From Tubiluchus corallicola (taxonomy: Eukaryota; Priapulida; Priapulimorpha; Priapulimorphida; Tubiluchidae): 64,000 nucleotides of DNA. A program made the position numbers and the translations under genes. Positions 1-63,200 of this stretch are shown in pieces. Position 1 is the stretch's first letter. Each line of letters starts with the position of its first letter. The stretch spans positions 18,501-82,500 of the forward strand of contig JAQGDQ010000872.1 of the NCBI GenBank assembly GCA_030141605.1, written 5' to 3'. The notes under the pieces were generated by a model, which was given only the letters and a program-made list of their open reading frames with translations, made no database searches and was not told the DNA's origin.

Positions 1-41
1 CAGGGACGATAATAAACACAATAAAACACAAGTAGACTCAC

Positions 42-143
42 TCTGCAAGGCAGCATCAGAAACCATGACTAAATCATATTCGGCTGCTTCATAGGCTGGG
101 ATCATGTTGTTAATTTTTGGATTTATCCCAACAGTTTTACCAC
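42..143 (-). CDS. UGCG: UGCG exon 4 (second acidic motif)
   Basis: Encodes [18 protein letters not shown] and then [17 protein letters not shown]. The NPKINN block and the DxA position replacing DSG are diagnostic of the GT21 family. The donor GTGAGT at 36-41 shows that coding continues in exons beyond the left edge. Confidence 0.9.
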
Positions 144-29600: not shown

Positions 29601-32600
29601 ACCGTATATAGTTTGTTAAAAAGTAACGTAACTTTTATAAATTAACTCAAACCCTAGTTGTACATTCAAAATAGTTGTCATGGTTTTGCATGTGTGATGT
29701 GAAATCTCCTTTTTTTAAATTTTCGAAAAATCTCCGGATTTCTGGAGGTGAGAGGTCGGCGTTGTTTTTTTTTGTTATACTTTCTTACATCAAGCATTTC
29801 AACTCATGAATACCAGCCTAAAGTGCTTAGCATCTATTGCTAGTTAAACTGGTTAAGAACTTTTTCTGTTAGACGGTACAGGAACAGCATCATCACTTCT
29901 CATTTATCATGTTGACAGTTTAGATACAATCAATTACAATGTATCAACTCGTAGAGGAATAGCATCATCACTTCTCATTTATCATGTTGACAGTTTAGAT
30001 ACAATCAATTACAATGTATCAACTGGTAGAGGAACAGCATCATCACTTCTCATTTATCATGTTGACAGTTTAGATACAATCAATTACAATGTATCAACTG
30101 GTAGAGGAACAGCATCATCACTTCTCATTTATCATGTTGACAGTTTAGATACAATCAATTACAATGTATCAACTGGTAGAGGAACAGCATCATCACTTCT
30201 CATTTATCATGTTGACAGTTTAGATACAATCAATTACAATGTATCAACTGGTAGAGGAACAGCATCATCACTTCTCATTTATCATGTTGACAGTTTAGAT
30301 ACAATCAATTACAATGTATCAACTGGTAGAGGAACAGCATCATCACTTCTCTTTATCATGTTGACAGTTTAGATACAATCAATTACAATGTATCAACTGG
30401 TAGAGGAACAGCATCATCACTTCTCATTTATCATGTTGACAGTTTAGATACAATCAATTACAATGTATCAACTGGTAGAGGAACAGCATCATCACTTCTC
30501 ATTTATCATGTTGACAGTTTAGATACAATCAATTACAATGTATCAACTGGTAGAGGAACAGCATCATCACTTCTCATTTATCATGTTGACAGTTTAGATA
30601 CAATCAATTACAATGTATCAACTGGTAGAGGAACAGCATCATCACTTCTCATTTATCATGTTGACAGTTTAGATACAATCAATAACAATGTATCAACTGG
30701 TAGAGGAACAGCATCATCACTTCTCATTTATCATGTTGACAGTTTAGATACAATCAATTACAATGTATCAACTGGTAGAGGAACAGCATCATCACTTCTC
30801 ATTTATCATGTTGACAGTTTAGATACAATCAATTACAATGTATCAACTGGTAGAGGAACAGCATCATCACTTCTCATTTATCATGTTGACAGTTTAGATA
30901 CAATCAATTACAATGTATCAACTGGTAGAGGAACAGCATCATCACTTCTCATTTATCATGTTGACAGTTTAGATACAATCAATTACAATGTATCAACTGG
31001 TAGAGGAACAGCATCATCACTTCTCATTTATCATGTTGACAGTTTAGATACAATCAATTACAATGTATCAACTGGTAGAGGAACAGCATCATCACTTCTC
31101 ATTTATCATGTTGACAGTTTAGATACAATCAATTACAATGTATCAACTGGTAGAGGAACAGCATCATCACTTCTCATTTATCATGTTGACAGTTTAGATA
31201 CAATCAATTACAATGTATCAACTGGTAGAGGAACAGCATCATCACTTCTCATTTATCATGTTGACAGTTTAGATACAATCAATTACAATGTATCAACTGG
31301 TAGAGGAACAGCATCATCACTTCTCATTTATCATGTTGACAGTTTAGATACAATCAATAACAATGTATCAACTGGTAGAGGAACAGCATCATCACTTCTC
31401 ATTTATCATGTTGACAGTTTAGATACAATCAATAACAATGTATCAACTGGTAGAGGAACAGCATCATCACTTCTCATGTTGACAGTTTAGATACAATCAA
31501 TTACAATGTATCAACTGGTAGAGGAACAGCATCATCACTTCTCATTTATCATGTTGACAGTTTAGATACAATCAATTACAATGTATCAACTGGTAGAGGA
31601 ACAGCATCATCACTTCTCATTTATCATGTTGACAGTTTAGATACAATCAATTACAATGTATCAACTGGTAGAGGAACAGCATCATCACTTCTCATTTATC
31701 ATGTTGACAGTTTAGATACAATCAATTACAATGTATCAACTGGTAGAGGAACAGCATCATCACTTCTCATGTTGATAGTTTAGATACAATCAATTACAAT
31801 GTATCAACTGGTAGAGGAACAGCATCATCACTTCTCATGTTGACAGTTTAGATACAATCAATTATAATGTATCAACTGGTAGAGGAACAGCATCATCACT
31901 TCTCATTTATCATGTTGATAGTTTAGATACAATCAATAACAATGTATCAACTGGTAGAGGAACAGCATCATCACTTCTCATGTTGATAGTTTAGATACAA
32001 TCAATTACAATGTATCAACTGGTAGAGGAACAGCATCATCACTTCTCATTTATCATGTTGACAGTTTAGATACAATCAATTACAATGTATCAACTGGTAG
32101 AGGAACAGCATCATCACTTCTCATTTATCATGTTGACAGTTTAGATACAATCAATTACAATGTATCAACTGGTAGAGGAACAGCATCATCACTTCTCATT
32201 TATCATGTTGACAGTTTAGATACAATCAATTACAATGTATCAACTGGTAGAGGAACAGCATCATCACTTCTCATTTATCATGTTGACAGTTTAGATACAA
32301 TCAATTACAATGTATCAACTGGTAGAGGAACAGCATCATCACTTCTCATTTATCATGTTGACAGTTTAGATACAATCAATTACAATGTATCAACTGGTAG
32401 AGGAACAGCATCATCACTTCTCATTTATCATGTTGACAGTTTAGATACAATCAATTATAATGTATCAACTGGTAGAGGAACAGCATCATCACTTCTCATT
32501 TATCGTGTTGACAGTTTAGATACAATCAGTTACAATGTATCAACTGGTAGAGGGACAGCATCATTACTTCTCATTTATCATGTTGATAGTTTAGATACAA

Positions 32601-35600
32601 TCAATAACAATGTATCAACTGGTAGAGGAACAGCATCATCACTTCTCATTTATCATGTTGACAGTTTAGATACAGTCAATTACAATGTATCAACTGACTT
32701 GTTTTCAGGATTGGAAGCAAAAACACCTGGTGAACCTGTAGGTACCGGTCTATCATTCACTGCTGCACAAGAACTAGGTTTATTGGAAGGTACGGCTGTG
32801 GCAACATCTATGGTTGATGCTCACGCTGGTGGTTTAGGTAACAGATAATTACTTGTATATATTTGCTGAAACTTGCTTAAAAAATAGCGCATTTCTAATT
32901 TGACATTACAGGTAGTCGTTGACTTATGACCTTTGCAACTTGAGTTCCACTTTTTGACCCAAGTACAACTTAATTATAATTAGTATAATTAAATATAAGT
33001 AATTAATTATACAAAAGCAAGTATGACTCATATTTTCTTCTATTTTTTAAACGAATTAACTTTAAATCGTTGTCTGTTTCTATAACTTCATCGTAGGCAC
33101 TAATCCTTGTACACACATGTAACGTTTTGCATGCAGGGGCACACTGTTTGAATATTGGTTGAATATACCGGTCCAACTTGCATTCAATTCGTCTTACGAT
33201 CAATCCACCTGCAGGGGCACACTGTTTGAATATTGGTTGAATATACCGGTCCAACTTGCATTCAATTCGTCTTACGATCAATCCACCTGCAGGGGCACAC
33301 TGTTTGAATATTGGTTGAATATACCGGTCCAACTTGCATTCAATTCGTCTTACGATCAATCCACCTGCAGGGGCACACTGTTTGAATATTGGTTAAATAT
33401 ACCGGTCCAACTTGCATTCAATTCGTTTTACGATCAATCCACCTGCAGGGGCACACTGTTTGAATATTGGTTGAATATACCGGTCCAACTTGCATTCAAT
33501 TCGTCTTATGATCAATCCACCTGCAGGGGCACACTGTTTGAATATTGGTTGAATATACCGGTCCAACTTGCATTCAATTCGTCTTACGATCAATCCACCT
33601 GCAGGGGCACACTGTTTGAATATTGGTTAAATATACCGGTCCAACTTGCATTCAATTCGTCTTACGATCAATCCACCTGCAGGGGCACACTGTTTGAATA
33701 TTGGTTGAATATACCGGTCCAACTTGCATTCAATTCGTCTTACGATCAATCCACCTGCAGGGGCACACTGTTTGAATATTGGTTGAATATACCGGTCCAA
33801 CTTGCATTCAATTCGTCTTACGATCAATCCACCTGCAGGGGCACACTGTTTGAATATTGGTTGAATATACCGGTCCAACTTGCATTCAATTCGTCTTACG
33901 ATCAATCCACCTGCAGGGGCACACTGTTTGAATATTGGTTGAATATACCGGTCCAACTTGCATTCAATTGGTCTTACGATCAATCCACCTGCAGGGGCAC
34001 ACTGTTTGAACATTGGTTGAATATACCGGTCCAACTTGTATTCAATTCGTCTTACGATCAATCCACCTGCAGGGGCACACTGTTTGAATATTGGTTGAAT
34101 ATACCGGTCCAACTTGCATTCAATTCGTCTTACGATCAATCCACCTGCAGGGGCACACTGTTTGAATATTGGTTGAATATACCGGTCCAACTTGCATTCA
34201 ATTCGTCTTACGATCAATCCACCTGCAGGGGCACACTGCTTGAATATAGGTTGAATATACCGGTCCAACTTGCATTCAATTTATCTTATGATCAATCCAC
34301 CTGCAGGGGCACACTGTTTGAATATTGGTTAAGTATACCGGTCCAAGTTGTATTCAGTTCGTCTTACAATCAATCCACCTGCAGGGGCACACTGCTTGAA
34401 TATAGGTTGAATATACGGGTCCAACTTGCATTCAATTTATCTTATGATCAATCCACCTGCAGGGGCACACTGTTTGAATATTGGTTAAGTATACCGGTCC
34501 AAGTTGTATTCAGTTCGTCTTACAATCAATCCACCTGCAGGGGCACACTGTTTGAATATTGGTTGAATATACCGGTCCAACTTGCATTCAATTTGTCTTA
34601 CGATCAATCCACCTGCAGGGGCACACTGTTTGAATATTGGTTGAATATACCGGTCCAACTTGTATTCAATTCGTCTTACGATCAATCCACCTGCAGGGGC
34701 ACACTGTTTGAATATTGGTTGAATATACCGGTCCAACTTGCATTCAATTCGTCTTACGATCAATCCACCTGCAGGGGCACACTGCTTGAATATAGGTTGA
34801 ATATACCGGTCCAACTTGCATTCAATTTATCTTATGATCAATCCACCTGCAGGGGTACACTGCTTGAATATTGGTTAAATATTCCGGTTCAACTTGCAGT
34901 GTAACTTCAATGTTTGCACTGTAACAAAGTGCAGTATCAGTTATTTGAATCCACTGATGCAGAAAATTTCAACTACCCAGACACAACACTCTGATACAGT
35001 TTTGGGGCGGGTCGTAGCTAAAATTAGTGCAGTGCTGCTTCAGAAAATTTATAACCATTGCTATAATACTGTGTAAAATGTAACAAACATACGTAACCTT
35101 AGTGTTGTAGTTTTATTTGAAGATCAGGTGTTGGATGGCCGCTTTCCTTAATTGCAACTTTCTCATGGAGAGACAACTGTGAAAAATTAAGCTGTTCTAG
35201 TTCACTTACAGTTATGTTTAAACAATTTAAACCAGCATGATTGGATAGCCGATTTTGCCCTGAATAGAACAGTACCTAATTTATAATTATTTAGTGCTGT
35301 CTGTGCTCGTACAGTAGCAGAAAAGTCATAGGTCTTATAAGACCCATTTTGAATGGTGTGGTTCTGAAGGAGTTACTATTTTACAGGATCAGTAGCTTGT
35401 CAGGTGCAAGGAGAAGATAAAATCAATGAAGTTCCATTTGAAAACCGTCTTTCAATGATTTGTGGAACATCCACTTGTCATATGGCTGTAAGTGTAGATT
35501 TATATGTGAGAGGTAACTTATTTATAGGGTTTTGGGTGGGTGCTGTGCACTAATTGTAGAGCTCGTTAGATTCGCTCACTATGGATTTGAGACAGCTGAT

Positions 35601-39900: not shown

Positions 39901-42900
39901 ATAAAAACAAATGCTAAATATATTGGACTTTTATATTCTATTTTCGAATGATCAAGAAAATGTTTAAAAAATAGTGAAAGTTAGTTTTATAACCCCGTGC
40001 TTTTTTTATCTAGAAACTAGTACTACAACATGTAAAAAACTTGTATTTTCAAACTCCGATAGTAGCTCGTGGTAGCAGTCATTTTGCTTTGGGTCTTTCT
40101 CTGTTTACAAGTCCAGGCTTTCTTCGGGAAGAGCCATTTGCTGGATTTAAACATAACTTCAATGTGCTCTTGCAAAGTCCATAGCAACCAACATTTCTGC
40201 AGTTGCTAAGTGTTTTATAGAAACGCAACAAAAAACAATGGCTGACTTTAACAGTGATTTTCTCAAGATTTGGTTTTTCATTGTGGAGCCTGCACCTCAA
40301 CTTCAATGTGGATTATCTGAGCTTAGAAATAACATAGAGCAATGAGCTTGAATTTGGTATCAATTCGATCTTCATGAAATGGAGATTTGGGGCATATGAA
40401 TAACTAGAAAAGCTTAACTGCCGACTTATGGAGCATTTTGTTATGCAAGCACACATATAACATCTCAAATTTTGTTTTAATTTTGTACAGTGAATAATTA
40501 CATTTGTGCAAATTGAAATCTGGTAGATCAAAGAATATATCATAAACCGTGAAACTGATATAAATATTTTTTTATTACTTTGTCAAATTCTGTTCTGCAC
40601 TTGATGTCTCTTTTGATGCTCCATTATCATACATGTATTATGATTTTAATGGACTCCAGTGTCTTTTCAATACTTTGCAGGTATCTGGTTTGTCATTGGA
40701 TAACTCCGTCTCCAACTTGGCTGTATTATACCTAGCAACAATCCAGGCGCTTGCCGTAAGCATCTTCAAATTTTATTTAAGTATAAAAGAATGACATATC
40801 GGCTAAAGTTCACAATTTCTCACACATAAGAAATTAGTTCATGAAGTGGATTAGGATTAGGGTTAGGATTTGCATTAGCGTTAGTGTTAGGATTAGGATT
40901 AGCATTAGGATTTGCATTAGTGTTAGTGTTAGGATTAGGATTAGTGTTAGGATTTGCATTAGTGTTAGGATTAGGATTAGTGTTAGGATTTGCATTAGTG
41001 TTAGGATTAGGATTAGTGTTAGGATTTGCATTAGTGTTAGGATTAGGATTAGTGTTAGGATTTGCATTAGTGTTAGTGTTAAGATTAGGATTAGGGTTTG
41101 TGTTAGGATTTGCATTAGTGTTAGTGTTAGGATTAGTGTTAGGGTTAGTGTTAGGATTAGTGTTAGGATTAGGGTTAGGGTCAGTGTTAGGATTAGTGTT
41201 AGGATTAGGGTTATGATTAGTGTTAGTGTTAGTGTTAGGATTAGGATTAGTGTTAGGATTTGCATTAGTGTTAGGATTAGGGTTAGGATTTGCATTAGTG
41301 TTAGGATTAGGGTTAGGATTTGCATTAGTGTTAAGATTGGGATTAGGGTTAGGATTTGCATTAGTGTTAAGATTAGGATTAGGGTTAGGATTTGAATTAA
41401 TGTTAAGATTAGGATTAGGGTTAGGATTTGAATTAGTGTTAAGAATAGGATTAGTGTTAAGAATAGGATTAGTGTTAGGATTAGGATCAGGGTTTGTGTT
41501 AGGTTATTTAAACTGTGGTTTAATTGTAAACTCCTTCCGACGTATTTTGGTAAAAAAATATAGTTTTTACTTTTTATTAATACCCTTAAATGTTGGTTAA
41601 AACATTTGTGTTGCTTAGTTCATTGTAAGCACCTTCTCTTTCAGTATTCCACCAAGCATATAATAGAAGCAATGACCACAAGTGGACACCAGTTTGAGCT
41701 TTTGGTTATGTGTGGCGGATTAAACAAAAATGAACTTTATTGTCAGACGCATGCAGATGTTACAGGTAATTCCAAAGTGCACGAATTTTGTAGAGCAGCA
41801 GACCCCCCTGCATGACTTATGGGCACGGCGGAGTCGTGACTCAACCACCTTCTTAGCTATTATTTTGATGATGCAATTTCAAAGCTTTGACGGCGCAAGC
41901 CAAAAATTTGCACAGCTAGTCATTCAGTACCTTAATTAACCTAATTAAGTTAAATCAGTGTGTAGGGATGTTACTGCAATGCAATTGTCATTTCGGTTTG
42001 CCAATAATTGCACTTTTGGTTAAGTTTCGGTTTCGGCAAAATTTATTAAGTTTCGCAGCCGAAATTTCAGATAATATTTGTACCATGTTTCCGGATTTTA
42101 ACAGTATTTATCCAATTTACCTTTTCTTTCCTCCTAGATGTCAAAACCGCTGAAAAGTCTTAGCTAAATTAGTTCAATTAAATTTCGTTTACATAACTGT
42201 TTGTAACTTGCTTTTACCGGCAATGCGGCATATCTTCAATGCTGACGACTGTGAAGTTTTAGGGTCTCCAGGCCCAGTCAACCGAAAAATCATACCACGT
42301 TTGAATTTATTGGAGGAAAATCACATTTAATTTTATAATTTATGAGATATAGGCAAAAAAATATCTACAAATAAAATTTGTTTATTTTTAATGAAGCATT
42401 ATGATCTTCAAACATTAACCATTAAGGATATTTAAATCCAAAAACATTAAAACACATTTTCTAAGGTAAGTCACTCCATCAAACTTGAGGTTCTTGACTA
42501 TAAAACTTCCTTCTCCCTTTTGTATTACAATTTTTTATCAATAATTTTACATCACAGGAAATAAAAAACAAAATATTTTACTTATTTTAGAATTTTTTTT
42601 CAATTTTAGTAGTATTTGGTCTGCAAAAATGCTTCAGTTCAGTTTTGTTTCCGTATCGGTTTCCGTTGTTTCATAAAGTTCAGTTTCGGTTTGTAAATTC
42701 AGTTTCCGTACCATCCCTGTCAGTGCCGCAGGCCTTGAAGTATTTCATTTTTCTCACGAGGAACAGTTGATGCAAGCGTCACGAATTGTGGAAGATTTTC
42801 ACTCGTTTTCGTGGTGTGTTTGTCGTTTTGTTTATTTACTCATACATGGTTTTCCATGAATGTGTAGTACATGCACACACAAACGTTTTGTGTAGAAATC

Positions 42901-45900
42901 TACACACTTGTGCTTTCTTCTTCTTCTCCTTCTAACTCTCATTCCATCTATTGTAGGCATTGAGGTATCAAAATTTATCAGAGTATTCCAACCACTTCTA
43001 TCTGCAGCTAACAGTGTAAGTTCTTCTGCTCCTAAAGATAGATTTGGTTGAAGTTGTTGAACATCTTTATTTATCTTAGCTATACACGGTGTTTTAGGTT
43101 TACCAGATGGTTTTTTGCAAGGTTTTAAGGCTTCCTTTAAGGCGATTCTTACTGGTTCGTCATTTGGTAATCTTAGAAGACGCCCTAGCCATCTTAATCT
43201 TTGGATCTTGACTTTTGAACTCCAATAAATTTCTTTCATTCTAATGTATAAATCTTCATTTTTGATTATGTATGGCCATCTTATCTTTAAAACTTCCCCT
43301 AGAAGACTTCTTATGAAATGTGTCAATCTGGTTTTTGCATAATCGTTAAACCCGAAGTTTATTGTACATAAATATGCTGGTAACGTAAGCATTAAATAAT
43401 CCAAGTCTAATGTTAAGACTTAATTTCTTGCTAGTTAATACATTCTTGTGCTTTGAGTGATTTATATTTTCGAAAAATTCCCAATTCTTCCCAAGTGTAT
43501 CGCCGGGTTTTTTCCAGGTTTGCGGGTAATAATTCCGGATGTGGATAAATCCGTAGTACTGGGTTCTGCAATGCTGGGTGCTACAGCTTCTGGCGACTTT
43601 TCCTCGATCACCGATGCAATGAGATCGATGTCTGGTTGCGGACGACTACTTCATCCTCGACACAAAGACGTGGAGTAAGTCTTCTAGCTACAATTTTCAA
43701 TACAGTTTTTACCATTACCGTCAGTCTTTTTACTAAATTCATAATAAATTTTTTCCACAAGTTTGTTGCAGTTTTCGGGTCTTTGTGTAACAAGTACCTG
43801 ACTTCCTTTCAATTGTGTGTTTGCAAACCAAAACCATCCATAAGTCGGCGGAGTTAAAACTAAAATCAATTTTTCGTTTTTTGTGAAAACAAACACTAAA
43901 TATATTGGTGTTTTATATTCTTGCAACGTGGATGCAGTTCATTTTGCTTCGGGTTTTTTTCTTGCCAAGCCCAGATATTCGCCAGGAAGAGTCATCTACT
44001 GGATTTAAACATAACTTCAACGTGCTCTTGCAAAGTCCATAGCAACCAACATTTGTGCGGTTGCTAAGTGTTTTGTAGAGATGCGACAAAAATAATGGTT
44101 GACTTTGAAGCACTTCATAGGTGTAGTATGCACCTCAACTTCAACATGGATTATTTCATTTTAGCAATAACACAGAGCGATAAGCTTGGTATCAAAATGA
44201 TCTTGATGAAATCAAGAGTCAGGATATGTGAATAACTGGGAAAGCTTAATTGCCGACTTATGGACGTTTTTGCTATGCAAGTTTTAAATACACGAAGAAG
44301 CCATGCTCTAAAGAGTCAACATGAAGTTTATTAAGTGCAGGTGATCATTTCTACAGCAACGTCATTATTCATGCTAGAAGTCAAACAAATAATTAGAGCC
44401 CAGAGCCGCACCGTTTCAACTGAGCTCCAGCCGGTTTATTTCTACAGTTGACCTATGTTTGGGCTTTCAAAACCAAATTTGAAGCTAGATTACATTTTGC
44501 TCTTTCTTCCTTCTTTATTTACCAAAACATATCATTCCATCTAAACAAAACCATAAACAAATGACAAAAAATAAATAACATAATTCAGAGTTTCATACTG
44601 CACCGTCGCATTAATCAATAAATAGCTTTTATCTAATAGTAAATTTAAATTTTATAAAGTAATTTGAGTATATACGTACGTTTTTAGCCCCAAATCATGA
44701 GCAATTGCAACAGATAACGACAACATTTAATCAACCCACAATGACACGTCCTCACTTCACACGCCTCTGACACCGATCAAACTGATCACGTGTCCGGGCC
44801 AAAAAATCACCACAAGGTGGCCAAAGCCAACAACAAGTGAAGGCCGCAAAGCACGCCAATGCCAGATTTCCAGTACAAAGTAGCTGATAAGAAACCAGCT
44901 TTATTCGACAGGTCAGCTGGTCAGTGATGGGAGTCGAGCTAGCCGACAATTTTGCCGGCTGCGAATAATCACGTGACACTGCAAATCACTGGTTCAAATA
45001 TGGCAAACGCTTTGCGGATTCGCGGCCAGATTGTGCGTGTGCTGTCAGAGACACTAAACTTTAGAAATTTTTGAACGAGAAAGCTGGTCAATTCTAAATT
45101 AAATATACAAATGGCAACATAAGTCACATGCACGGGATCATTTAGGTGTTTTGGTATTGATTCGTTGGTAATCAAGATAAGCCTCGCCAAGAGTTGTATT
45201 TAAATTACATTTGCACTAAATCCATTGCTTTTTTAAAATAATAAAAAATGATCTCTAATGCATTATTTGAATTTGTACATCAGCTTTTTTCTGTGTTTAA
45301 GCAACAAGAATTATTTTAAAAAATCTGTCTTCATAATTTAACAGTTAACTAACAATTTATCATTTATTTAGTTAACAAAAATTCACGTTTTAGCTGACTA
45401 AGCTGATTTATTCTTTAAGTCAACTCAGCTGAAAAGTCAGTCAACTTCAACCGAGCTAGCTGATTTACTGTGTGAGTCAGCTGATGTAGTAGCAACTGTC
45501 TCAGCTTCAGCCGAGCTAGCTGATTTACTGTGTGAGTCAGCTGATGTAGTAGCAACTGACTCAGCTTCAGTCGAGCTAGCTGATTTACTGTGTGAGTCAG
45601 CTGATGTAGTAGCAACTGTCTCAGCTTCAGCCGAGCTAGCTGATTTACCGTGTGAGTAGTCAGCTGATGTAGTAGCAACTGACTCAGCTTCAGTCGAGCT
45701 AGCTGATTTACTGTGTGAGTCAGCTGATGTAGTAGCAACTGTCTCAGCTTCAGCCAAGCTAGTTGATTTACTGTGTGAGTCAGCTGATGTAGTAGCAACT
45801 GACTCAGCTTCAGTCGAGCTAGCTGATTTACTGTGTGAGTCAGCTGATGTAGTAGCAACTGTCTCAGCTTCAGCCGAGCTAGCTGATTTACCGTGTGAGT

Positions 45901-47160
45901 AGTCAGCTGATGTAGTAGCAACTGACTCAGCTTCAGCCAAGCTAGTTGATTTACTGTGTGAGTCAGCTGATGTAGTAGCAACTGACTCAGCTTCAGTCGA
46001 GCTAGCTGATTTACTGTGTGAGTCAGCTGATGTAGTAGCAACTGTCTCAGCTTCAGCCGAGCTAGCTGATTTACCGTGTGAGTAGTCAGCTGATGTAGTA
46101 GCAACTGACTCAGCTTCAGTCGAGCTAGGTGATTTACTGTGTGAGTCAGCTGATGTAGTAGCAACTGACTCAGCTTCAGCTGAGCTAGCTGATTTACTGT
46201 GTGAGTCAGCTGATGTAGTAGCAACTGACTCAGCTTCAGCCGAGCTAGCTGATTTACCGTGTGAGTCAGCTGATGTAGTAGCAACTGACTCAGCTTCAGC
46301 CGAGCTAGCTGATTTACCGTGTGAGTAGTCAGCTGATGTAGTAGCAACTGACTCAGCTTCAGCTGAGCTAGCTGATTTACTGTGCGAGTCAGCTGATGAA
46401 GTAGCAACTCATTCAGCTTCAGCCGAGCTAGCTGATTTACTGTGCGAGTCAGCTGATGAAGTAGCAACTCACTCAGCTTCAGCCGAGCTAACTGATTTGC
46501 TGTGTGAGTCAGCTGATGTAGTAGCAACTGACTCAGCTTCAGTCGAGCTAGCTGATTTACTGTGTGAGTCAGCTGATGTAGTAGCAACTGACTCAGCTTC
46601 AGTCGAGCTAGCTGATTTACTGTGTGAGTCAGCTGATGTGGTAGCAACTGACTCAGTTTCAGCTGAGCTAGCTGATTTACTGCGTGAGTCAGCTGATGTA
46701 GTAGCAACTGACCCACATTTCAGCCGAGCTAGCTGATTTACTGCGTGAGTTAACTGATGTAGTTGCAACTGACTCCGCTTCCGCCGAGCTAACTGATTTG
46801 CTGTGTGAGTCAGCTGATGTAGTAGCAACTGACTCAGCTTCAGCCGAGCTAGCTGATTTACTGTGTGAGTCAGCTGATGTAGTAGCAACTGACTCAGCTT
46901 CCACCGAGCTAGCTGATTTACTGTGTGAGTCAGCTGATGTAGTTTGTAGTATCATAAATGTACTGATTATTTGTTCTGGCTTCATTTCTAGCATTGATAA
47001 TGACAATTGCTGTCGAAACGATCATCTGTGCTTAAGAAATATCATGTTGTTTACTATTTTTGTTTTTTTTTCTGTTGACAGGTATCATAATAGAAAGTAC
47101 AAAGTGTTTCTACAAATGGTAGAAGATCAGAAGAAATATCAGGAAATTATGACATCCTAA
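23458..47160 (+). CDS. FGGY: FGGY carbohydrate kinase (D-ribulokinase type)
   Basis: Thirteen exons: 23458-23643, 24475-24589, 26370-26610, 27994-28121, 32709-32837, 35387-35487, 35645-35752, 38255-38316, 39498-39648, 40681-40755, 41645-41765, 43518-43674, 47082-47160. They give 550 residues, close to the 551 of human FGGY; a short first exon with the ATG is missing. Both actin-like ATPase folds are present: [17 protein letters not shown] (phosphate 1), [21 protein letters not shown] (catalytic Asp), [10 protein letters not shown] (phosphate 2), [29 protein letters not shown] (adenosine site) and a C-terminal [15 protein letters not shown]. The animal/yeast family phosphorylates D-ribulose to D-ribulose 5-phosphate. 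All key residues are intact, so it is probably active. Introns and 3' UTR carry several minisatellites. Confidence 0.95.
23820..26365. repeat. Dispersed repeat family L (several direct and inverted segments)
   Basis: GTCTGAACTGAGAGGTACAG and its surroundings occur near 24100 and 24930; inverse segments follow at 25560-26000 and 26200-26360. GGAAGACAGGATGATTTTCC (24680) and AATCATCCTGTTTTCC (26345) look like the outer inverted ends of one composite. FGGY exon 3 lies between two of the segments. Confidence 0.45.
24475..24589 (+). CDS. FGGY: FGGY exon 3
   Basis: [20 protein letters not shown] then [32 protein letters not shown] is a family hallmark. The acceptor is TTGTTTAG and the donor GTTTGT, phase 1. 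Confidence 0.93.
26370..26610 (+). CDS. FGGY: FGGY exon 4 (substrate-binding WMDHR)
   Basis: [20 protein letters not shown] to [20 protein letters not shown] and [14 protein letters not shown] form the sugar-binding side of domain I. The donor is GTAGGA, phase 2. Confidence 0.95.
26770..26955 (+). repeat. Dispersed repeat family K, copy 1
   Basis: GCTGACCGCTAGCTGGCAGG through ATACTTTTGCATAGGAGCGG recurs about 670 bp downstream at high similarity. Confidence 0.7.
27440..27635 (+). repeat. Dispersed repeat family K, copy 2
   Basis: GCTGACCGCTAGTTGGCAGG through ATACTTTTGCATAGGAGTAG; a fragment of the same family sits inverted near 54317-54385 in a ULK intron. Confidence 0.7.
27994..28121 (+). 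CDS. FGGY: FGGY exon 5
   Basis: [12 protein letters not shown], then [16 protein letters not shown] and YSKLG. The acceptor is ATTTTGCTAG and the donor GTAAAA. It is followed by a 4.6-kb intron mostly made of a 75-bp array. Confidence 0.93.
28421..28845. mobile_element. Palindromic MITE (TAGGTTTGACATGTCAAATG ends)
   Basis: The left end TAGGTTTGACATGTCAAATG pairs with the right end TTGACATGTAAAACCTA. The interior repeats AGTCAAATGTGG and GTTCAAATGTG motifs several times in both orientations. It lies in FGGY intron 5, just before an ATAATAATA microsatellite (28950-28981). Confidence 0.6.
29040..29880. other. FGGY intron 5, unique-looking sequence
   Basis: I see no exon here. AACGTAACGTAACG-type sequence occurs near 29410 and 29620 as an imperfect direct pair. 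Confidence 0.4.
29881..32697 (+). repeat. 75-bp minisatellite, about 37 copies, abutting FGGY exon 6
   Basis: The unit contains GGAACAGCATCATCACTTCT, TTGACAGTTTAGATACAATC and AATGTATCAACTGGTAGA. Most units are 75 bp; several lack the ATTTATC block. Units are almost identical, implying recent expansion or homogenisation. The last copy runs into GACTTGTTTTCAG, the exon 6 acceptor. Confidence 0.97.
32709..32837 (+). CDS. FGGY: FGGY exon 6 (catalytic Asp, DAHAGG)
   Basis: [20 protein letters not shown] to [10 protein letters not shown]. The Asp of DAHAGG is the catalytic base in this kinase family. The acceptor CTTGTTTTCAG follows the last 75-bp repeat after about a dozen bases. Confidence 0.95.
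33127..34905 (+). repeat. 78-bp minisatellite, about 23 copies, in FGGY intron 6
   Basis: The unit contains CTGCAGGGGCACACTGTTTG, AATATTGGTTGAATATACCG and CAATTCGTCTTACGATCAAT. It stays open for 581 codons on the plus strand and for long runs on the minus strand because the unit is a multiple of three without stops. Units near the right end diverge and form a two-unit higher-order pattern (TTTATCTTATG and TTCGTCTTACAAT alternate). Confidence 0.97.
34906..35372 (-). mobile_element. piggyBac-type MITE relative ending next to FGGY exon 7
   Basis: The right part, TCTTATAAGACC then GTTCTGAAGGAG, is the inverse of the left end of the 6265-6980 element; the flanking TTAC is a one-base variant of TTAA. 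The left end merges with ATGCAGAAAATTTCAACTAC, also family sequence. Confidence 0.65.
35387..35487 (+). CDS. FGGY: FGGY exon 7 (phosphate 2 loop GTSTCHM)
   Basis: [12 protein letters not shown] to [20 protein letters not shown] is the second phosphate-binding loop. The acceptor ATTTTACAG lies 13 bp after the end of a piggyBac-type MITE. Confidence 0.95.
35645..35752 (+). CDS. FGGY: FGGY exon 8
   Basis: [20 protein letters not shown] to [22 protein letters not shown] and EGGQS are invariant blocks of the family; the Asn/Asp-rich start is lineage-specific. The donor is GTAAAA. Confidence 0.94.
35955..36012. repeat. (TTTA)n microsatellite
   Basis: About 13 TTTA units in FGGY intron 8. Confidence 0.95.
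36020..37620. other. FGGY intron 8, no gene found
   Basis: AT-rich intron sequence with a CA microsatellite and no supported exon. Confidence 0.4.
36838..36915. repeat. (CA)n microsatellite, interrupted
   Basis: ACACACAC runs broken by ATGC and TC steps, in FGGY intron 8. Confidence 0.9.
37630..38150 (-). mobile_element. piggyBac-type MITE, truncated at one end
   Basis: TTAA (37626-37629) followed by CTCCTTCAGGACCGTAAG, then family sequence through GGGCTGTAGCATTTATAAAT; the other terminal repeat is absent. It ends about 100 bp before FGGY exon 9. Confidence 0.7.
38255..38316 (+). CDS. FGGY: FGGY exon 9
   Basis: A short exon, [20 protein letters not shown], phase 2 at its end before GTGAGC. 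It follows directly on SVAGKL as in other members. Confidence 0.9.
38317..39497. other. FGGY intron 9, no gene found
   Basis: AT-rich, with GTGACGCCC-type short duplications near 38800. No exon or array recognised. Confidence 0.4.
39498..39648 (+). CDS. FGGY: FGGY exon 10 ([10 protein letters not shown])
   Basis: [12 protein letters not shown] to [20 protein letters not shown] and [10 protein letters not shown] is the diagnostic eukaryotic FGGY block. The donor is GTAGGT. Confidence 0.95.
39790..40456 (+). mobile_element. Family-A MITE, complete copy
   Basis: The left end GTGTGCCTGCAAACCAAAAT continuing with CGTCCATAAGTCGGCA is matched inversely by the right end TGCCGACTTATGGAGC with TATGCAAGCACACAT. 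About 665 bp, no transposase, in FGGY intron 10. Confidence 0.8.
40681..40755 (+). CDS. FGGY: FGGY exon 11
   Basis: 25 codons, [20 protein letters not shown] then IQALA. The acceptor is ATACTTTGCAG and the donor GTAAGC. The following intron starts with a telomere-like hexamer tract. Confidence 0.93.
40845..41512 (+). repeat. Degenerate telomere-like hexamer tract
   Basis: About 110 hexamers of TTAGGA, TTAGTG, TTAGGG, TTTGCA and TTAGCG type, with a higher-order unit near GTTAGGATTTGCATTAGTGT. It is open in several frames on both strands for composition reasons only. It lies in FGGY intron 11. Confidence 0.92.
41645..41765 (+). CDS. FGGY: FGGY exon 12 (adenosine motif)
   Basis: [20 protein letters not shown], then [27 protein letters not shown] is the adenosine-binding glycine motif of the actin-like fold. 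The acceptor is TCTCTTTCAG and the donor GTAATT. Confidence 0.95.
41965..42720. mobile_element. hAT-like MITE rich in TTTCGGTTT
   Basis: GTAGGGATG at the left and CCATCCCTG at the right are inverted. CGGTTTCGGCAAAA and TTTCCGTATCGGTTTCCG clusters lie inward of each end. No target duplication resolved. In FGGY intron 12. Confidence 0.5.
42890..43400 (-). pseudogene. RTE-type LINE 3' fragment
   Basis: Minus strand: [20 protein letters not shown], then [18 protein letters not shown] and a basic [11 protein letters not shown] end. This is the C-terminal region of an RTE-like ORF ending in GAA-rich sequence. 5'-truncated; in FGGY intron 12. Confidence 0.75.
43518..43674 (+). CDS. FGGY: FGGY exon 13
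   Basis: [20 protein letters not shown] then [15 protein letters not shown] and [24 protein letters not shown] is conserved. The donor is GTAAGT, phase 2. Confidence 0.94.
43815..44281 (+). mobile_element. Family-A MITE, internally deleted copy
   Basis: GTGTGTTTGCAAACCAAAAC at the left and TGCCGACTTATGGACG with TGCTATGCAA at the right; about 200 bp shorter than complete copies. In FGGY intron 13. Confidence 0.75.
44282..45410. other. FGGY intron 13, no gene found
   Basis: Nothing supported apart from AT-rich intron sequence and a GC-richer stretch near 44740-45050 without a gene signature. Confidence 0.4.
45415..46950 (+). repeat. 60-bp minisatellite, about 25 copies, in FGGY intron 13
   Basis: The unit contains GAGCTAGCTGATTTACTGTG, TGAGTCAGCTGATGTAGTAG and CAACTGACTCAGCTTCAGCC. 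A 63-bp variant with an extra TAG step (GTGAGTAGTCAG) recurs about every third to fifth unit. The absence of minus-strand stops gives a 433-codon open frame that is not a gene. Confidence 0.96.
47082..47160 (+). CDS. FGGY: FGGY exon 14 (C-terminus, stop)
   Basis: [20 protein letters not shown] then EIMTS and TAA. It matches the C-terminal helix of the family. The acceptor is TTCTGTTGACAG, 130 bp after the 60-bp array. Confidence 0.94.
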
Positions 47161-47304
47161 TATCTGCATTCTAAGATTTGAAAGAATTTTCATAGTTTTT
47201 TGAAATCCAAATTAATTTGCTACAACCCAAATAATTTTGTTGATCTGGTTGGATATATACATAGCTGTATCATTTGATGTGTATTCAGGTTTGTGAAGTG
47301 TTCT

Positions 47305-47690
47305 TGCAGTCTAGCTACTTCCTTGCTTGCAGTCTAGCTACGTCCGTCCTTGCAGTCTAGCTACGTCCGTGCTTGCAGTCTAGCTACGTCCGTGCTTGCA
47401 GTCTAGCTACGTCCGTGCTTGCAGTCTAGCTACGTCCGTGCTTGCAGTCTAGCTACGTCCGTGCTTGCAGTCTAGCTACGTCCGTGCTTGCAGTCTAGCT
47501 ACGTCCGTGCTTGCAGTCTAGCTACGTCCGTGCTTGCAGTCTAGCTACGTCCGTGCTTGCAGTCTAGCTACGTCCGTGCTTGCAGTCTAGCTACGTCCGT
47601 GCTTGCAGTCTAGCTACGTCCGTGCTTGCAGTGTAGCTACGTCCTTGCTTGCAGTCTAGCTACCTCCTTGGTTGCAGTCTAGCTACGAAA
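47305..47690 (+). repeat. 23-bp minisatellite, about 17 copies, in the FGGY 3' UTR
   Basis: TGCAGTCTAGCTACGTCCG recurs at 23-bp spacing, with most internal units identical and the outer units diverged. It starts about 145 bp after the FGGY stop, so it is probably transcribed in the mRNA. Confidence 0.96.
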
Positions 47691-54200: not shown

Positions 54201-57200
54201 GGATTTTCTGATTCTTCAAATTTCCCGATATTAAAGTAATGCAGTAGGCACTAGGTACATTGTTAGACTCACGGTAATGTAGACTAAATTGTCTAATTGT
54301 CTCAGAAATGTCTAGTACTGGCTGCAAAAGTATATAAAAACTGTCGGTAACTGCCTCAAATAACTCCGCATAAGTGACTCAATATTTTTCCTTCACGTAC
54401 TTAAAATAAGACATTCGTATGTGTCCAAAGAGCCTTTCCTATTTTTATGCCATCTTTACTTCCCTTTTGTGCACTATAATATATGTAGAAACAATCATGT
54501 TAAGTACCGTTTCGTTTGTAAGCAGGTACGTTTATCATGCACTAATACGCTAGCGTAAGTTTTGATTTGTATCTGTTACCCACTGGCCCACTGCAATTAA
54601 CCTCGTTACCCAAGAATTTCTGGAAGTTAAACATTTAATCACTTGTCTAGTGGTTTCCTTTTGATACTCAAGTTGCAAATCACGCTTTCAGGCTTAATAA
54701 GTTAACAGTGACTGATGCAAGTACAGTAATTTTTGTAGATAAACAAACTTGTGTGATTTAGAAAAGTATACTTTTTAATTATTGCTAATACACTTGTATA
54801 ATATACATTTTTTCTAATTTTTAACTGCACAGAGGAATTTAGGCATTACTTCGTTTCTAAAATTCATTAAAAACCTTTGCAGTGCACAGTAAGCTGATAC
54901 TTCTATACCAGTAACTACACCCATTGGTTAATAGGTTCAGTCGGTTAATTGGATCAAAACACTTCGGTCCCAAAGTGAATCTATCAAGTGGCCTCTACTG
55001 TATTTACATATATATGTATATGTATATATATTGAAAATTTTTAATATGAGTTTTTATGTTATTTACAAAGTTGAGAACTAATGTATTCCAGAAACGTCAA
55101 GTTACAATAATAAAATTTTTCATAAATAATACTGTTGCAATTTTACGTAAAAACGTACTCCTCTGTTCATGAACGATTCCGTCAGCTTCCCGATGGCTCC
55201 CTCTCTTGACTTGGCAATCTCGTACAGGTAATCCACCAGAGCAAGGACAAAGTTCAACTTAGCCAGAGTCTCATTGTGCTCTTTCTGCAAGCAAATAGAC
55301 AGCAAATCAAGGGATTAAATCAAAAGCACAATGGCAATGTTTTACACAATGCTGCGTAATGTTGTGTTGCAGAATTAAGGCTTGTAAGTGTTTTAATGTC
55401 GTCCTTAAACCGAAACAGCAAATGTTTGTTTCCATAGCAAAAACGTCTGTAAGTCGGCAGTTAAACTTTTCCAGTTATTCATATATCCTGAATTTCCATT
55501 TCATGAGCATCATTTTAATACCAAGTTCATCGTTCTGTGTTATTTCTAAGCTGAGATAATCCACGTTGAAGTTGAGGTGCAGGCTGTGCACTGAAAAACA
55601 TAATCTTGAGAAAATCACTGTTGAAGTTAGCCATTGTTTTTGTCACGTTTCTACAAAACACTTAGCAACAGCACAAATGTTGGTTGCTATGGACTTTGCA
55701 AGAGCAAATTGAAGTAACGTTTAAATCCAGTAGATGGCTCTTTATGATGAAGATCTGGGCCTGGCGACAGAAAAAATCCAAAGCAAATGCCTGCAATTCA
55801 CAAGTTATTATAGGAGTTTGAAAATACGAGTTTTTGACAAACACATTCCTAGTTTTTAGGCAAAGAAGTAGGTAAAGAGTTATAAAATTAAATGTTTAGT
55901 ATTTTTTAAACAATTTGCTGACATTTTGATGCTAGGATAGAAAATCCCATTATAATTAGCATTAGTTTTGAAAAAAAAATAAAAAAACTGACATCTGAGC
56001 AAATTTTTGATGCATTCTACTTTGAAGCATCATAACGCAGGTTTAATTATGTCGGCTTGCAGACGATTTTGGTTTGCGAACACATAAATGATTACAAATT
56101 ACCTCCAGTATAGTTTCTTCGGGAAGCTCTGGAGCCACAAGGTAAGCACATAAATGATTACAAATTACCTCCAGTATAGTTTCCTCGGGAAGCTCTGGAG
56201 CCACAAAGTAAATAGGACCCTCCATGTTCGGAGGACTCTGCGGTACAATGGCTCCGGGGTACAACTCCTCCACATCTCTCGTCTCCTTCGTCTCCGCAAT
56301 GGGTTCCGTACTCGGTTGAAATTCTCTTGCGCTGTGTGTACGATCTCGGTATGGTAAGACAATGTGTTGCCCGGCAACGGGTGCAGGGTACAAGATGGCT
56401 GTAAAACAAACAATGTAAACTGTAAAGAAATCTAATTAAAGGGAAAAAGGGAATTCTAGAGTTTGTCGCATAAAAATTTTCCTCGCAAAGTTGTATTACG
56501 AAGCTCTACGGCTACCTGCTTGAAAAACTTGAGTACTTAAAAAAGAAAATTTTTAGTTAATTTAAATGTTCGCACCACGCGGTAAAATGCCGTTGACTCA
56601 CCTTCCCAGGATGCACCACTGATTCACTAAAAAACATATTATCAATCCTATTGACAAGATACAGTAATTTAAAATTTTACTCAGTTAGTGATCTGTGTGC
56701 TACGAAAGCTCTGATTATTTTTCAAACTTTACACAATGCTATCTAAACTTGTTTCAAACAACTTACCATTAAAATTACTGCACCTAGCGATCATCGCTGA
56801 GTTTAAATTTACAAGTTTTATACAGCGTTACTGCTAAAGCAAGCTCTGTGCGCAATAAGACAGTACCCGTGTGGTGATGCAAAATTTGAAGACGAATTTT
56901 TCCGTTTTACGTAAGGAAAGGGTTTTCTCATGCTTTAAAACTGTAAAAATTACCTAAATACGAACTTACTTCTAACCACTATAGCAAAACAGACAAACGA
57001 AAAACTGATTTAAACAGTAAACAGTACATCATTATCAAAAAAAAACTACATAGAAAAGTGAAACCTACTTGGTACAAAGCCTCCATTCGTTAAAGCTGCT
57101 TTTAGTAGCTGCTCCGTTAGGCGACCGCCACTATTTGACCTCCTAAACATGGCCGCTCCACTCTCATATCCGGCATCTTCCTGCTCATTCCCTGGACAAA

Positions 57201-60200
57201 AAGAAAAAACAGAAACCACATGAAGTGAAATAGAGATGTTGCTTTTGTGGTTCAACCGACGTGTATTAAGAACGGAAAATTTAAAAAAGTACCTCTATAC
57301 CTAATAATAGATCTGTACGCTTACTTTGGACTGCAGTTTCATGTCTAGGTCTCATTATTACAATAACTACAACGTACAAATGGCAGCTTCCAAAATGAGA
57401 ATCTTATTGCAGCCATTTTGGACTTGTGATACCATATAATTGTGCTAGCAAACCAAAACCATCAATAAGTCGGCGTAGTTAAAACTACGTTATGATGCTT
57501 TGGAGTAGAATGCACCAAAAAATTTGGTCAAATGTCAATTTTTTGTGTTTTTATAAAAACAAATGGTAAATACATTGGACTTTTATATTGTAGCATCAAA
57601 TTATCAAGAAAGTGTTTAAAAAATACTAAAAATCTAATTTTATAACGCCGTACCCACTTTTTTGGCTAGAAACTAGTACTGCAATTGTAAAACTTGTACT
57701 TTCTAACTGCGTCTGTAGCTCCTGGAAATATTCATTTTACTTCAACGTGTTCTTGTCAAGTCCATAGCAACCAACATTTGCGCAGTTGCTAAGTGTTTTG
57801 TAGAAACGTGACAAGAAACAATGGCTGACTTTAACAGTGATTTTCTCAAGATTATGTTTTCCAGTGTGAAGCCTGCACCTCAACTTCAACGTGGATTATC
57901 TCAACTTAGAAATAACATAGAGCGATGAACTTGGTATCAAAATGATCCTCACGAAATGGAGATTCGGGATGTGTGAATAACTAGAAAAGCTTAATTGACG
58001 ACCTATGAATGATTTTACCATGCTAACACACATATACAAATTTCTGCATCTGGTAGTAAAACATACCCTGCACAGCAAAATCCACCATGTTAGCCGGCAT
58101 GGTCTGTGCACGCATACCACCGAATGCTGCCCTGAGCGGGCGAGTAGGACTTTCTCCGCCCGACACTGCAGGAAGATTTAGCGAATACGGTCCTTTAACC
58201 GGGGAGTCGGTTATCGTGGGCAAGCCGGGCTGTGCCAAACTGCTCGGGGTAGGAACACGATGAAGCAGCGGTACAGAAGTAGGTGGCGTACCTGTAATGA
58301 AATGATGTTCACTCTCGTTGTTAGTTACTAATCATTAAGCATTAAATGTCCTGGGTTGGGTGCGAAAGTGGTTTAGATTTCGGACTGCAACAATGCAGTC
58401 TTCGAGTCCAGCGCCTGCCAACGCTAGGACATAAACCCTACATGTTATTCGTTATTTGTGTGTTGCGTCTTTACATGTGTTGTTGTAAATGTAAGTCGCT
58501 AAATTGCCGTTAGTGTGGCAGCCTCTCTGTATTAGGCGAAAATTTCTTTCACTTTGCTTTAATATCTAACAGAAAATTGATGTTCTTGTGTAAGTGCTGC
58601 CACCTGTTTCACCTGGTTGGGTAGGTGAGTTGGCTTGAGCAGCAGTAGTCAGACTGCAATGATTTATGTTGACACATTCCAGAATTGCTAATATTTTTGT
58701 TTTCAAGATTTGAGTCTTACGTTTTTGTTGGATCTACTTCATTACCTTAATGTTTTCATAGTTGCAACAATGTAACAATGTAACAATACTAATAAACTTA
58801 GTTAATATGTTACATCCATCAGTCAGTTCACCTTCGCATACTAAACCTGTTGCTTAAGAAACAGACTCAATGTTTACCTGTACTCCACCGACGGTGCGGT
58901 GACCCCTGGCAGCTGGGCGGGGTCGTGCCAGCCCGCACTACTGAAAGGGGTGATACCGGAGGAGGCGTGCCCTGACTAGATGCACTACTCGAACGAACTC
59001 GGCCCAGATTTGGGGGAGTACCAATCATAAACTGAACTGTAACAGAAAATTTTCAAAAACTGTGTAAAAGCTCCTCCCACAACTGTTTTAATGAGAATAA
59101 TTATATAAAAATTATGAATAATTATGAATATTATAAATGTCAAGTGACGATTGTGGTTAAGACGCGTTGCTGTGGCACCCTTAACCTTTGACCTGCAGCA
59201 ACTGTGCGTGCTCACAACGAAACTGCGCGTGCTCACAACGAAACTGTGCGTGCTCACAACGAAACTGTGAAAAGAGTTATTGTAAACAAAATTTTGTCCA
59301 AATTTAGCTGATCCTGAGCATAAAGCTACAGTAGACAATTTGTTTCTGATACTTTACGTATCGAAAATTTGCAATAACAACGTTTAAGAAAGTGCAGCCT
59401 TAGAAAATTTAGTTTTCTTACCAGCAGGAGGCGACAGTGAGGCAATAGGGGCAGTAGAGCCAGCCGAGCCAACGGAAGCTGCTGAATCAGTTCTAGGAAT
59501 TGGCACGCCAGTTACTGCCTATTAAAGTAAAAAAACCATTAAAATGAGAAAAACTTTCACTTTGTAGAAATGAAGATTATGATTTAACAGCACAAGCATA
59601 CTAAAAGAAAACTTCAAAACAAAACAGCTGCTGTATACTACTCTCAAAATACTGACTTTATAGTATAGATTGTTGATTACCTTTGGTGGCCTACTGGGAC
59701 TTGCCTCAGACCGCTCTGACCTCATCGAATGGTCAGACTGCGGCAAAGACTGAGTAGAGTTAGACTGTTGCATTTTATTATAATTTTCAACCTGCAAAAA
59801 AATCAATAATTTAACATGTGCAAATTCGAACTAACATAAACATTTGATTTGGTAAAGCAGAGAAAATTCAAATTAAAATGTAAGCAATTTCAGCAGGTCA
59901 GTAGAGGAAACAGGCCAACCAATCACAAATCATTATAAAGCAAACAAATGCACATAAGCAAGACTTTTTCTGTTTTCTGTTTCTTCTGACTTTTCTTAAT
60001 ATGTTATATTCATCTGAGGCACTGTGACAAAAAGCACAGTAACAATGCATGCACTCACTTGAGAAGGAACGGGTATTGTGACAAAAACACAGTAACAATG
60101 CATGCACTCACTTGAGATGGAACGGGTATTGTGACAAAAACACAGTAATAATGCATGCACTCACTTGAGATGGAACAGGTATTGTGACAAAAACACAGTA

Positions 60201-63200
60201 ACAATGCATTCACGTGAGAAGGAACAGGTATTGTGACAAAAAGCACAGTAACAATGCACTCACTTGAGAAGGAATGGGTATTGTGACAAAAACACAGTAA
60301 CAATGCACTCACCTGAGAAGGAACAGGTACTGTGACAAAAAGCACAGTAACAATGCATTCACGTGAGAAGGAACAGGTATTGTGACAAAAAGCACAGTAA
60401 CAATGCACTCACTTGAGAAGGAATGGGTATTGTGACAAAAACACAGTAACAATGCATTCACCTGAGAAGGAACAGGTACTGTGACAAAAAGCACAGTAAC
60501 AATGCATTCACGTGAGAAGGAACGGGTATTGTGACAGAAAAGACAACAACAATGTCCTCACCTGAGAAGGAACAGGTACTGTGACAAAAAGCACAGTAAA
60601 AATGCATTCACGTGAGAAGGAACAGGTATTGTGACAAAAAGCACAGTAACAATGCACTCACTTGAGAAGGAATGGGTATTGTGACAAAAAGCACAGTAAC
60701 AATGCACTCACGTGAGAAGGAACAGGTATTGTGACAAAAACGCAGTAACAATGCACTCACCTGAGAAGCAACAGGTATTGTGACAGAAAACACAACAATA
60801 ATGTCCTCACGTGAGAAGGAACAGGTATTGTGACAGAAAACACAACAATAATGTCCTCACCTGAGAAGGAACAGGTATTGTGACAGAAAAGACAACAACA
60901 ATGTCCTCACCTGAGAAGGAACAGGTATTGGCTCTGACGCATACTCATCCGAACATCCCGACATCGGACGACTATGTATGTGCAGATCACTGGGACGTGT
61001 TGGACTTGACCGTTTGCAATAAGTAACACCATCAGACTTTGGATTGAAAGTTACAACACTTTGCTGGTGATTCTTAGTAGAGGACTGAGCAGCACTGGAA
61101 GAAATCAATGCATCGTCACATCAACTTCGATTAGCGGAATACTAAATCAGGAAATAAAGTGTAATAAATGTAATAATAATTAACATTTTTGCCAGTTTCG
61201 ATGTGCTGTAGGTCAAAGGTTTAAGTGTACCACAGCAACGCATCATAATTACAACCGTCATTGACGTGTGTGTAAAATAAAGCCGTCTGTCACATCAGTT
61301 CAGTAACTTCAGTTGTTTTGCGTGGACTTTGTTCAATTATGCATTAGTCTGTGCGTAGAGTGATTTACTAGCAGGATCTTGCTTGGGAACAAGAAAAATG
61401 AACTAGGTAAGGTTCTAGCCGTTAAAACTGTTACTAGTACAACAGCATGGGCTGCATTGTTAAGTGAACACAAATGCGTTGTCTGGTACACTTAACCTTT
61501 GACCTTTTACACGATCTTCACCAATCGCTGGAACTGTGAAAAGGCTCATTATACTTAAAAATAATAATAAAAAGTATAATAATAGTTATTTAAATTGACA
61601 TACTTGAATTGTGCATTATCCAAAGGTTTGCTAGCACACTCCATATCTTGATGGATTGGCAAATTGACAGGAACCATCACAAAATCCTAAAGAGACGATA
61701 TGAAAGTTTGTTATGCTAATTCAGCAAGCAATATGAGAAAAATATGAAAGTCTGGGATAGAGCATTTTTTGCCTTTCAAAACTACCTGAACTTTTATCAT
61801 TTCCCCCCTGCACACAGAATACAATTTATAATATATAAGAACTGTATAGGAGAATTCATTAGAAAAATGGAATAAGAACTTGTATGGTCATTACATGTGT
61901 GCTTGCAAACCAAAATCATCCATAATAAGGCATAGTTAAAACTACGTTATGATGCCTCAAAGTAGAATAACCCAAAAATTTGGTCAAATGTCATTTTTTT
62001 TTGTTTTTCATAAAAACAAATGCTAAATATATTGGAATTTTATATTCAAACATCAAGTTATCAAGAAAATATTCAAAAAATACTAAAAATTTAATTTTAT
62101 AACCTTGTACCCACTTTTCTGTCTAGAAATTAGTACTGCAATTGTAAAAACATTAGTATTGCAATTTTCAAACTCTGATAAGCAGCTCTTGGAAGCAGTC
62201 ATTTTGCTTCGGGTTTTTTCTGTTGCCAAGCCCAAATCTTCATAAGGAAGAGCCATCTACTGGATTTATACATAACTACAATGTGTTCTTGCAAAGTTCG
62301 TAGCAACCAACATTTGTACGGTTGCTAAGTGTTTTGCAGAAATGCAACAAAAAAACAATGGCCAACTTTAACAGTGATTTTCTCAAGATTATGTTTTTCA
62401 GTGTGCAGCCTGCACCTCAACTTCAATGTGGATTATCTCAGCTTAGAAATAACATAGAGCGATGAACTTGGTATCAAAATGATCCTCATGAAATGGAAAT
62501 TCAGCATACGTGAATAACTAGAAAATCTTAATTGCCGACTTACGGACGATTTCGCTATGCAAGCACACATTTTATCTACTGATCATTTCAGAACTTTCTA
62601 AATTATAATTACTCTGCATAGAAATGACTAGATAATGATATTTCTGCTACTTTCTAATGAGTGAATCATAAACATTTGACTATCTGGGACCTAGAGAAGC
62701 TCACATTGAAACAATCAACAGTGGAGTGAATTATGTGTTGTCTAAACGCAGGATAATTCCACAGTAATAACACAAGCTATTCAGAAATGTGATGAAGATT
62801 TCATCTCTTGATTTGATAACGTAGGAAAGTAAATGTTAGCACTGCTTTGGAAGTAACAATGTTGAAAACAAATAAATTAATTATATATATAAAATATATA
62901 TAATTATTTATATTATATATATATATTTTTCAGTTTATTTTTGTTACATTTTTCCTTTCACAGTGTGGGACAATCTAACAAGACCTGCTTTTTGATTGCC
63001 AGCAACACATTCACATTCATATATATATATAGACAATATATGTTGTCTTGTGCAGAAACAATAAAGACTTATTTTGTATTGTGTTCATTGTAGGCCCTTT
63101 TACCATATATTTATATTTTATAAATAATTACATTAATCAAAATTCAATAAGAAAACTTAAGTGTCGGAAGAACTATTAGATCCTTCATGTCGTCTGATTA

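Follow-up and report, generated by a model that had tools for sequence, protein, structure and literature searches.

The ULK/ATG1 kinase gene of the priapulid Tubiluchus corallicola carries, at the boundary between a coding exon and the intron that follows, a minisatellite that appears to be built from that boundary itself: 18 tandem units, each repeating the end of the exon and the 5' splice site beside it. The array lies in the 64,000-nucleotide stretch analysed here (the window; GenBank assembly GCA_030141605.1, contig JAQGDQ010000872.1, positions 18,501 to 82,500). It belongs to a known kind, the 'mirage' or boundary variable number of tandem repeats (VNTR). The reading that we favour, and consider probable, is that of a mirage-type minisatellite, born of slippage and nearly neutral, carried as a passenger while the first donor is mostly used and the first decoy at a low level. 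Effects of the array on splicing are most likely minor.

Anatomy of the array

One way to see the origin of the array is to cut the minus strand, on which its units read, at the junction motif. The 17 complete units so obtained measure 49-53 bp; Tandem Repeats Finder (TRF) gives the whole as window 60023-60930, period 50, 18.0 copies, 89% matches, score 1235. A unit consists of the final 20 nt of the coding exon (codons ending IPVPSQ) and about 30 nt of the adjoining intron, in the pattern ...ATACC..TTCC.TCTCA[G/C/A] followed at the junction by GTGA...; the units are also grouped in a higher-order repeat, about 149 bp long (TRF). Homology on the exon side stops after the 20 nt, matching the TRF end at 60930. 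The outermost, exon-proximal unit holds the authentic donor, with the intron starting at 60910, and the other 17 copies are intronic. An earlier note on this DNA, made from the letters alone, had described an 18-unit junction minisatellite with PVPSQ codons, the authentic CAG/GTGAGG at its right end and 17 copies within the intron, and had derived the array from the exon-intron junction. Unit cutting bears this out: 18 donors are recovered, and the 20 nt that recur come from the coding end of the ULK exon, whose own copy is the outermost. The decoys that the note singled out were also found, GTGAGT at 60760 and 60312, GTGAGG at 60860 and 60561.

The first intron bases of donors 1-9 are 60910, 60860, 60810, 60760, 60711, 60661, 60611, 60561 and 60511; those of donors 10-18 are 60461, 60412, 60362, 60312, 60263, 60213, 60164, 60111 and 60058. 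The features of the locus, all on the minus strand, are as follows (exon numbers are labels of this analysis):

60911-61094: ULK exon 2, preceded by AG and with an open frame; its last 20 nt lie within the array
60023-60930: minisatellite of 18 junction units (TRF, unit cutting, column alignment)
60905-60913: authentic donor CAG/GTGAGG (unit cutting, U1 pairing, frame)
60855-60863: first decoy, nine bases identical to the authentic donor (U1 pairing, frame)
60755-60763: decoy CAG/GTGAGT, U1 pairing stronger than authentic (duplex energy)
60556-60564: decoy CAG/GTGAGG, nine bases identical to the authentic donor (duplex energy)
60307-60315: decoy CAG/GTGAGT, U1 pairing stronger than authentic (duplex energy)
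59792-60910: array-bearing intron, with about 230 nt of non-repeat sequence between array end and acceptor
59681-59791: ULK exon 3, 111 nt, in frame if skipped
56081-56211: second junction duplication, 66 bp x 2, donors 56168 and 56102, in frame (TRF, frame)

GT is kept in every one of the 18 units, CAG/GT in six; the base at -1 is G in six units, C in six and A in six. The unit spans an exon-intron boundary and AG/GT is present in many but not all units, two features of mirages; the first unit appears to carry the exon's own donor, both outermost and the sole one to keep the frame, as in a VNTR of the ABCA7 type. A 151-bp junction query run against the 343.5-Mb assembly (2,344 contigs) gave 16 matches among the best candidates, which were the ones scored, and every one was at the ULK locus. 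Mitochondrial COX1 was also looked for in the assembly, with no match.

The host gene

The gene bearing the array is ULK, as judged from predicted exons and their homology. Exon 61094-60911 (184 nt) has a single frame open throughout, ending EPIPVPSQ, and is followed by exons at 59791-59681 and 59518-59422 (97 nt). Hand-joined translations of downstream exons matched the Pfam ATG1-like MIT2 family at 5.8e-9, above cut-off, and MIT1 at 1.9e-4, just under it; downstream exons also matched ULK1 chains in the Protein Data Bank (PDB; 8sqz, E 2.6e-24; 8soi, E 2.6e-22). A phmmer search with the exons flanking the junction returned no ULK match. The kinase-domain exons, which lie further upstream, are not reached because the contig stops at the right edge of the window. 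The residues across the junction, PIPVPSQ/VENY, may resemble human ULK1.

The same gene holds a second, smaller duplication of this sort: at 56081-56211, two 66-bp copies identical at 61 of 66 bases cross another exon end and its donor. It reads ELPEETILE/GTAATTTG, in frame, and splicing from the second donor would lengthen the protein by 22 residues. Related stretches around 'aggtcaaaggtttaagtgtaccacagcaacgcat' occur in ULK introns in both orientations (about 59160-59199, 61205-61250 and 61480-61515); these are perhaps a dispersed element.

Decoy strength and coding consequence

The strength of the decoys was taken as duplex energy with the genome's own U1 5' end, ATACTTACCTG, read at L062:1501, accompanied by a frequency matrix; U1 is present in the genome, where nine of its 11 matches exceed the Rfam cut-off. 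The authentic donor pairs at -11.6 kcal/mol, the decoys at 60760 and 60312 at -13.3, and those at 60860 and 60561 at -11.6; the remaining 13 range from -2.0 to -8.4 kcal/mol. Thus four of 17 decoys pair with U1 at least as well as the authentic donor, and 13 are weaker, mainly because the base before GT varies. The claim that decoys outdo the authentic donor for U1 therefore holds for two of them; two more are its equals, 13 fall short, and decoy strength had been overstated.

Translation gives a more uniform result. Splicing at the first decoy, 60860, would extend the exon by 50 nt, shift the frame and reach a stop in exon 3, in keeping with the 50-base extension and frameshift predicted in the earlier note; each of the other 16 decoys would run into a stop within the added array sequence itself. 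A premature stop is therefore the outcome for 17 of 17 decoys, and the authentic donor is the only one of 18 that keeps the frame open. What the array does in splicing can here only be inferred.

Junction arrays elsewhere in the genome

The ULK array has company. Pairs of CAGGTRAGT with 22-52 bases between them were matched 768 times and their reversed counterpart 67 times; single motifs number 8170 against 3468. In contigs up to C265, 11 arrays carry the donor and three the control motif. Donors as preferred seeds of arrays were considered and rejected: 11 versus three is near the ratio of singles, and matches clump in long arrays, so that no seeding preference is claimed. The dispersed 15-bp family GTAAGTTTGGTACAG accounts for several more donor arrays. 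The acceptor-like TTTTRCAGG gave no tandem excess, with 122 matches against 133 reversed (singles 15006 against 8655), a comparison made on matches and singles.

The matches listed contain at least 36 donor arrays or pairs, and the 5' edge was fetched for 33. In five of these the exon that stops at the first donor is homologous to known proteins:

L013: array at a dynein heavy chain exon (Pfam 2.9e-8, over cut-off)
L019: array at a citrate synthase exon (Pfam 1.7e-9, over cut-off)
L027: array at a JmjC exon (Pfam 9.3e-7, over cut-off)
L066: array at a sodium:dicarboxylate symporter exon (Pfam 4.3e-17, over cut-off)
L021: array at an exon of the insulin-degrading-enzyme family, weaker (Pfam 0.0017, below cut-off; PDB 0.0043)

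Six more exon ends are suspected from reading (L008, L009, L015, L022, L023 and L069). None of the six has a Pfam match and L008 has no PDB match; L022 matches a sulfotransferase, at E 0.25 only, below significance. Two arrays, L014 and L076, lie about 90 nt past a Kunitz-like exon, the Kunitz match of L014 being below the Pfam cut-off. No exon was seen at the remaining 20 of the 33, among them L074, whose stretch starts within the array. The exon end is plainly inside the unit at one firm case, where it makes up about 40 of 50 nt (C460, L034). Open-frame length was tried as a sign of an exon and rejected: of 31 arrays measured (the other two had too little upstream sequence), three reach the 95% level, and one of those is L025, where no exon was seen. 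The measure thus does not tell arrays that abut an exon from background, and the count of firm cases is limited to the five exons with homology support.

On these readings, junction-born arrays recur in this genome. The earlier suggestion that amplification from an exon-intron junction is unusual finds no support, given the five homology-supported and six suspected cases and the precedents in lancelets and in human ABCA7 and CBS.

Several of these arrays have peculiarities of their own. Members of the GTAAGTTTGGTACAG family (L053, L061, L072, L073, L074, L075 and L076, on contigs C195, C939, C507, C676, C823, C557 and C381) have many units that read as acceptor plus donor, and in C195 and C381 they stand about 90 nt past a Kunitz-like exon. 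On C555, one donor-bearing array occurs twice (L023 and L032; C555:40783-41491 and C555:68256-68835), in opposite orientations and with unit order reversed; this may be an inverted duplication, or the assembly may have joined haplotypes. At C338:42983-43613 (L020/L056), a span of some 650 bases has donor units of the same sequence on either strand.

Selection on the donor motif

Whether selection keeps or removes the donor nine-mer was judged from its divergence relative to the other bases of the unit. Ten arrays were each compared with their own consensus: ULK, four whose exons have homology support and five at suspected exons. Divergence is 0.047 in the nine-mer and 0.052 in the remaining bases. 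The figures are 0.059 and 0.050 for reversed-motif control arrays (11 of 14 with a usable TRF row) and 0.069 and 0.057 for other donor arrays (seven of 11 with a usable row). No overall constraint on the donor motif was found across the ten junction or suspected-junction arrays, and selective maintenance of decoys, to judge from these alignments, has left no apparent sign.

Probable origin and behavior of the array

The favoured account runs as follows. The array would have begun as a short tandem duplication that took in the 3' end of the ULK exon and the first bases of the intron, and slippage or unequal exchange would have expanded it to 18 units; it would persist because exon and first donor are left intact. 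The spliceosome would mostly choose the donor next to the exon, which alone keeps the ULK reading frame open. If ABCA7 is a guide, the decoy closest to it, 60860, would account for a small share of splicing, of the order of a few percent, and the resulting transcripts would be degraded by nonsense-mediated decay. Any larger effect would depend on array length, for example through skipping of the 111-nt exon 3.

Some points weigh against this account. The use of donors at ULK is itself an inference, and the slippage mechanism is deduced from the anatomy of the array alone. Furthermore, in ULK taken singly divergence is greater in the donor nine-mer (21 of 162 cells) than in the remaining bases (40 of 722; Fisher p 0.0017), which could reflect selection against strong decoys instead of neutrality. 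The Fisher test overstates the evidence, because variants have been copied along with the ~149-bp higher-order repeat and the cells are not independent. Nor is the ULK donor distinctive as a block in column entropy (0.356 versus 0.372), and 17 of 45 nine-column windows are equally variable.

A bolder proposal gives the arrays a larger part in the biology of the genome. That is, junctions recurrently seed minisatellites here; many working 5' splice sites would be end units of arrays and would evolve in concert with them; unequal exchange could move decoy variants into the functional donor, or alter output with length; array length, at ULK and elsewhere, would then act as a heritable expression dial. 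We regard this as unlikely.

A second alternative, which we rate as quite improbable, supposes that the array arose by chance and that selection then eroded its decoys: strong decoys close to a donor that is needed would reduce expression, so that units in which the G at -1 or at +5 is lost gain ground. The excess divergence of the ULK donor speaks for it, as does the -1 column, the most variable of the 53 in the array. Against it stand the copying of variants with the higher-order repeat; the first decoy, which adjoins the exon and yet keeps all nine bases; and the ten arrays of the divergence comparison, which together lack any such tilt.

The opposite form of selection, in which decoys are kept so as to lower or tune ULK output through nonsense-mediated decay of some transcripts, is consistent with the stop reached from every decoy, and in human ABCA7 the length of the VNTR is inversely correlated with expression (PMC5954066). 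It is very unlikely all the same, given that 13 of 17 decoys pair with U1 less well than the authentic donor and that donor motifs in such arrays show no constraint.

Two further alternatives can be dealt with briefly. A ratchet of recursive splicing, with YYYYCAG/GTGAG units serving as acceptor and then as donor, draws on the six units, the exon's own included, in which AG joins GT after 11-12 pyrimidines of 15; with AG lost in the other 12, so that an acceptor-donor pair is not retained through the array, and with the pyrimidine stretch being the end of a coding exon, it is hardly credible. An assembly artefact, the real genome having fewer units, deserves mention since tandem arrays are prone to misassembly and a single assembly was examined; it is exceedingly improbable, the ordered differences among units being hard for a collapsed or stuttering assembly to invent.

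Other features of the window

The window is rich in long minisatellite arrays. The one at 45441-46943 (60 bp x 25) has long open frames on both strands, with a 20-residue period on the plus strand; its translations matched no Pfam family over cut-off. Four further long, homogeneous minisatellites lie at 17155-19009 (62 bp), 29875-32696 (75 bp), 33132-34898 (78 bp) and 47303-47687 (23 bp). A degenerate telomere-like repeat, GGATTAGGATTAGTGTTA, occupies 40848-41487, internal to the contig. Open frames at about 1-12000 have the look of a ceramide glucosyltransferase (UGCG), a name assigned by eye.

Comparison with known systems

Near-identical 5' splice sites beside the real one constitute a natural experiment on how the spliceosome chooses among equals. 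Taken by itself, the ULK array is one further example; the added value lies in the presence of several such arrays in the same genome, where a single transcriptome could show how donor choice depends on distance, strength and copy number. Donor arrays are also relevant to the way in which tandem duplication might give rise to introns. A model in which introns are gained from duplicated AGGT has been published (PMC4974935). Intron gain of the Rogers type, in which the GT of one copy is joined to the AG of another, does not describe ULK, whose acceptor is found some 230 nt past the end of the array at 60023. No report of a ULK array was found among the titles and abstract openings of the literature searched.

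Among the closest known systems are the mirages of lancelets, minisatellite-like repeats over exon-intron boundaries with AG/GT in many, not all, units (PMC3087553, PMC3902484). Adh3, the globins Gb6 and Gb9, TnC and PGBD5 are among the mirage genes, the cases so called being cephalochordate; Adh3 data and reverse transcription PCR of globin suggest undisturbed splicing, and length instability is reported, even somatic. The ULK array differs in gene, in its 50-bp unit and 18 copies, and in being known from sequence alone; lancelet mirages occur at 3' boundaries as well as 5', whereas this one is at a 5' splice site.

Human ABCA7 offers a guide to consequence. Intron 18 holds a 25-bp VNTR that starts with the GT of the exon 18 donor; retention of one unit, out of frame, occurs at about 2%, and exon 19 skipping increases with VNTR length, as expression declines (PMC5954066). 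In ULK, too, the array opens with the GT of the real donor, and retention of one unit would shift the frame. The ABCA7 unit is repeated 12 to 427 times and its splicing and length variation have been measured, where the splicing of ULK is predicted; unlike the ABCA7 unit, that of ULK includes 20 nt of exon. In this last respect the 31-bp VNTR of human CBS, c.1444_1467+7(16_21), is nearer (PMC2630376): the notation, as interpreted here, means 16-21 copies of a unit with 24 nt from the exon end and 7 nt from the intron. The ULK unit differs in length and in its share of intron, and the CBS repeat is polymorphic in people. Finally, repeat units of human IFI6 (6-16) act as splice donors (PMC4526556, citing Turri et al. 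1995); there, downstream units are reportedly used and yield isoforms, whereas every downstream unit of the ULK array would lead to a stop.

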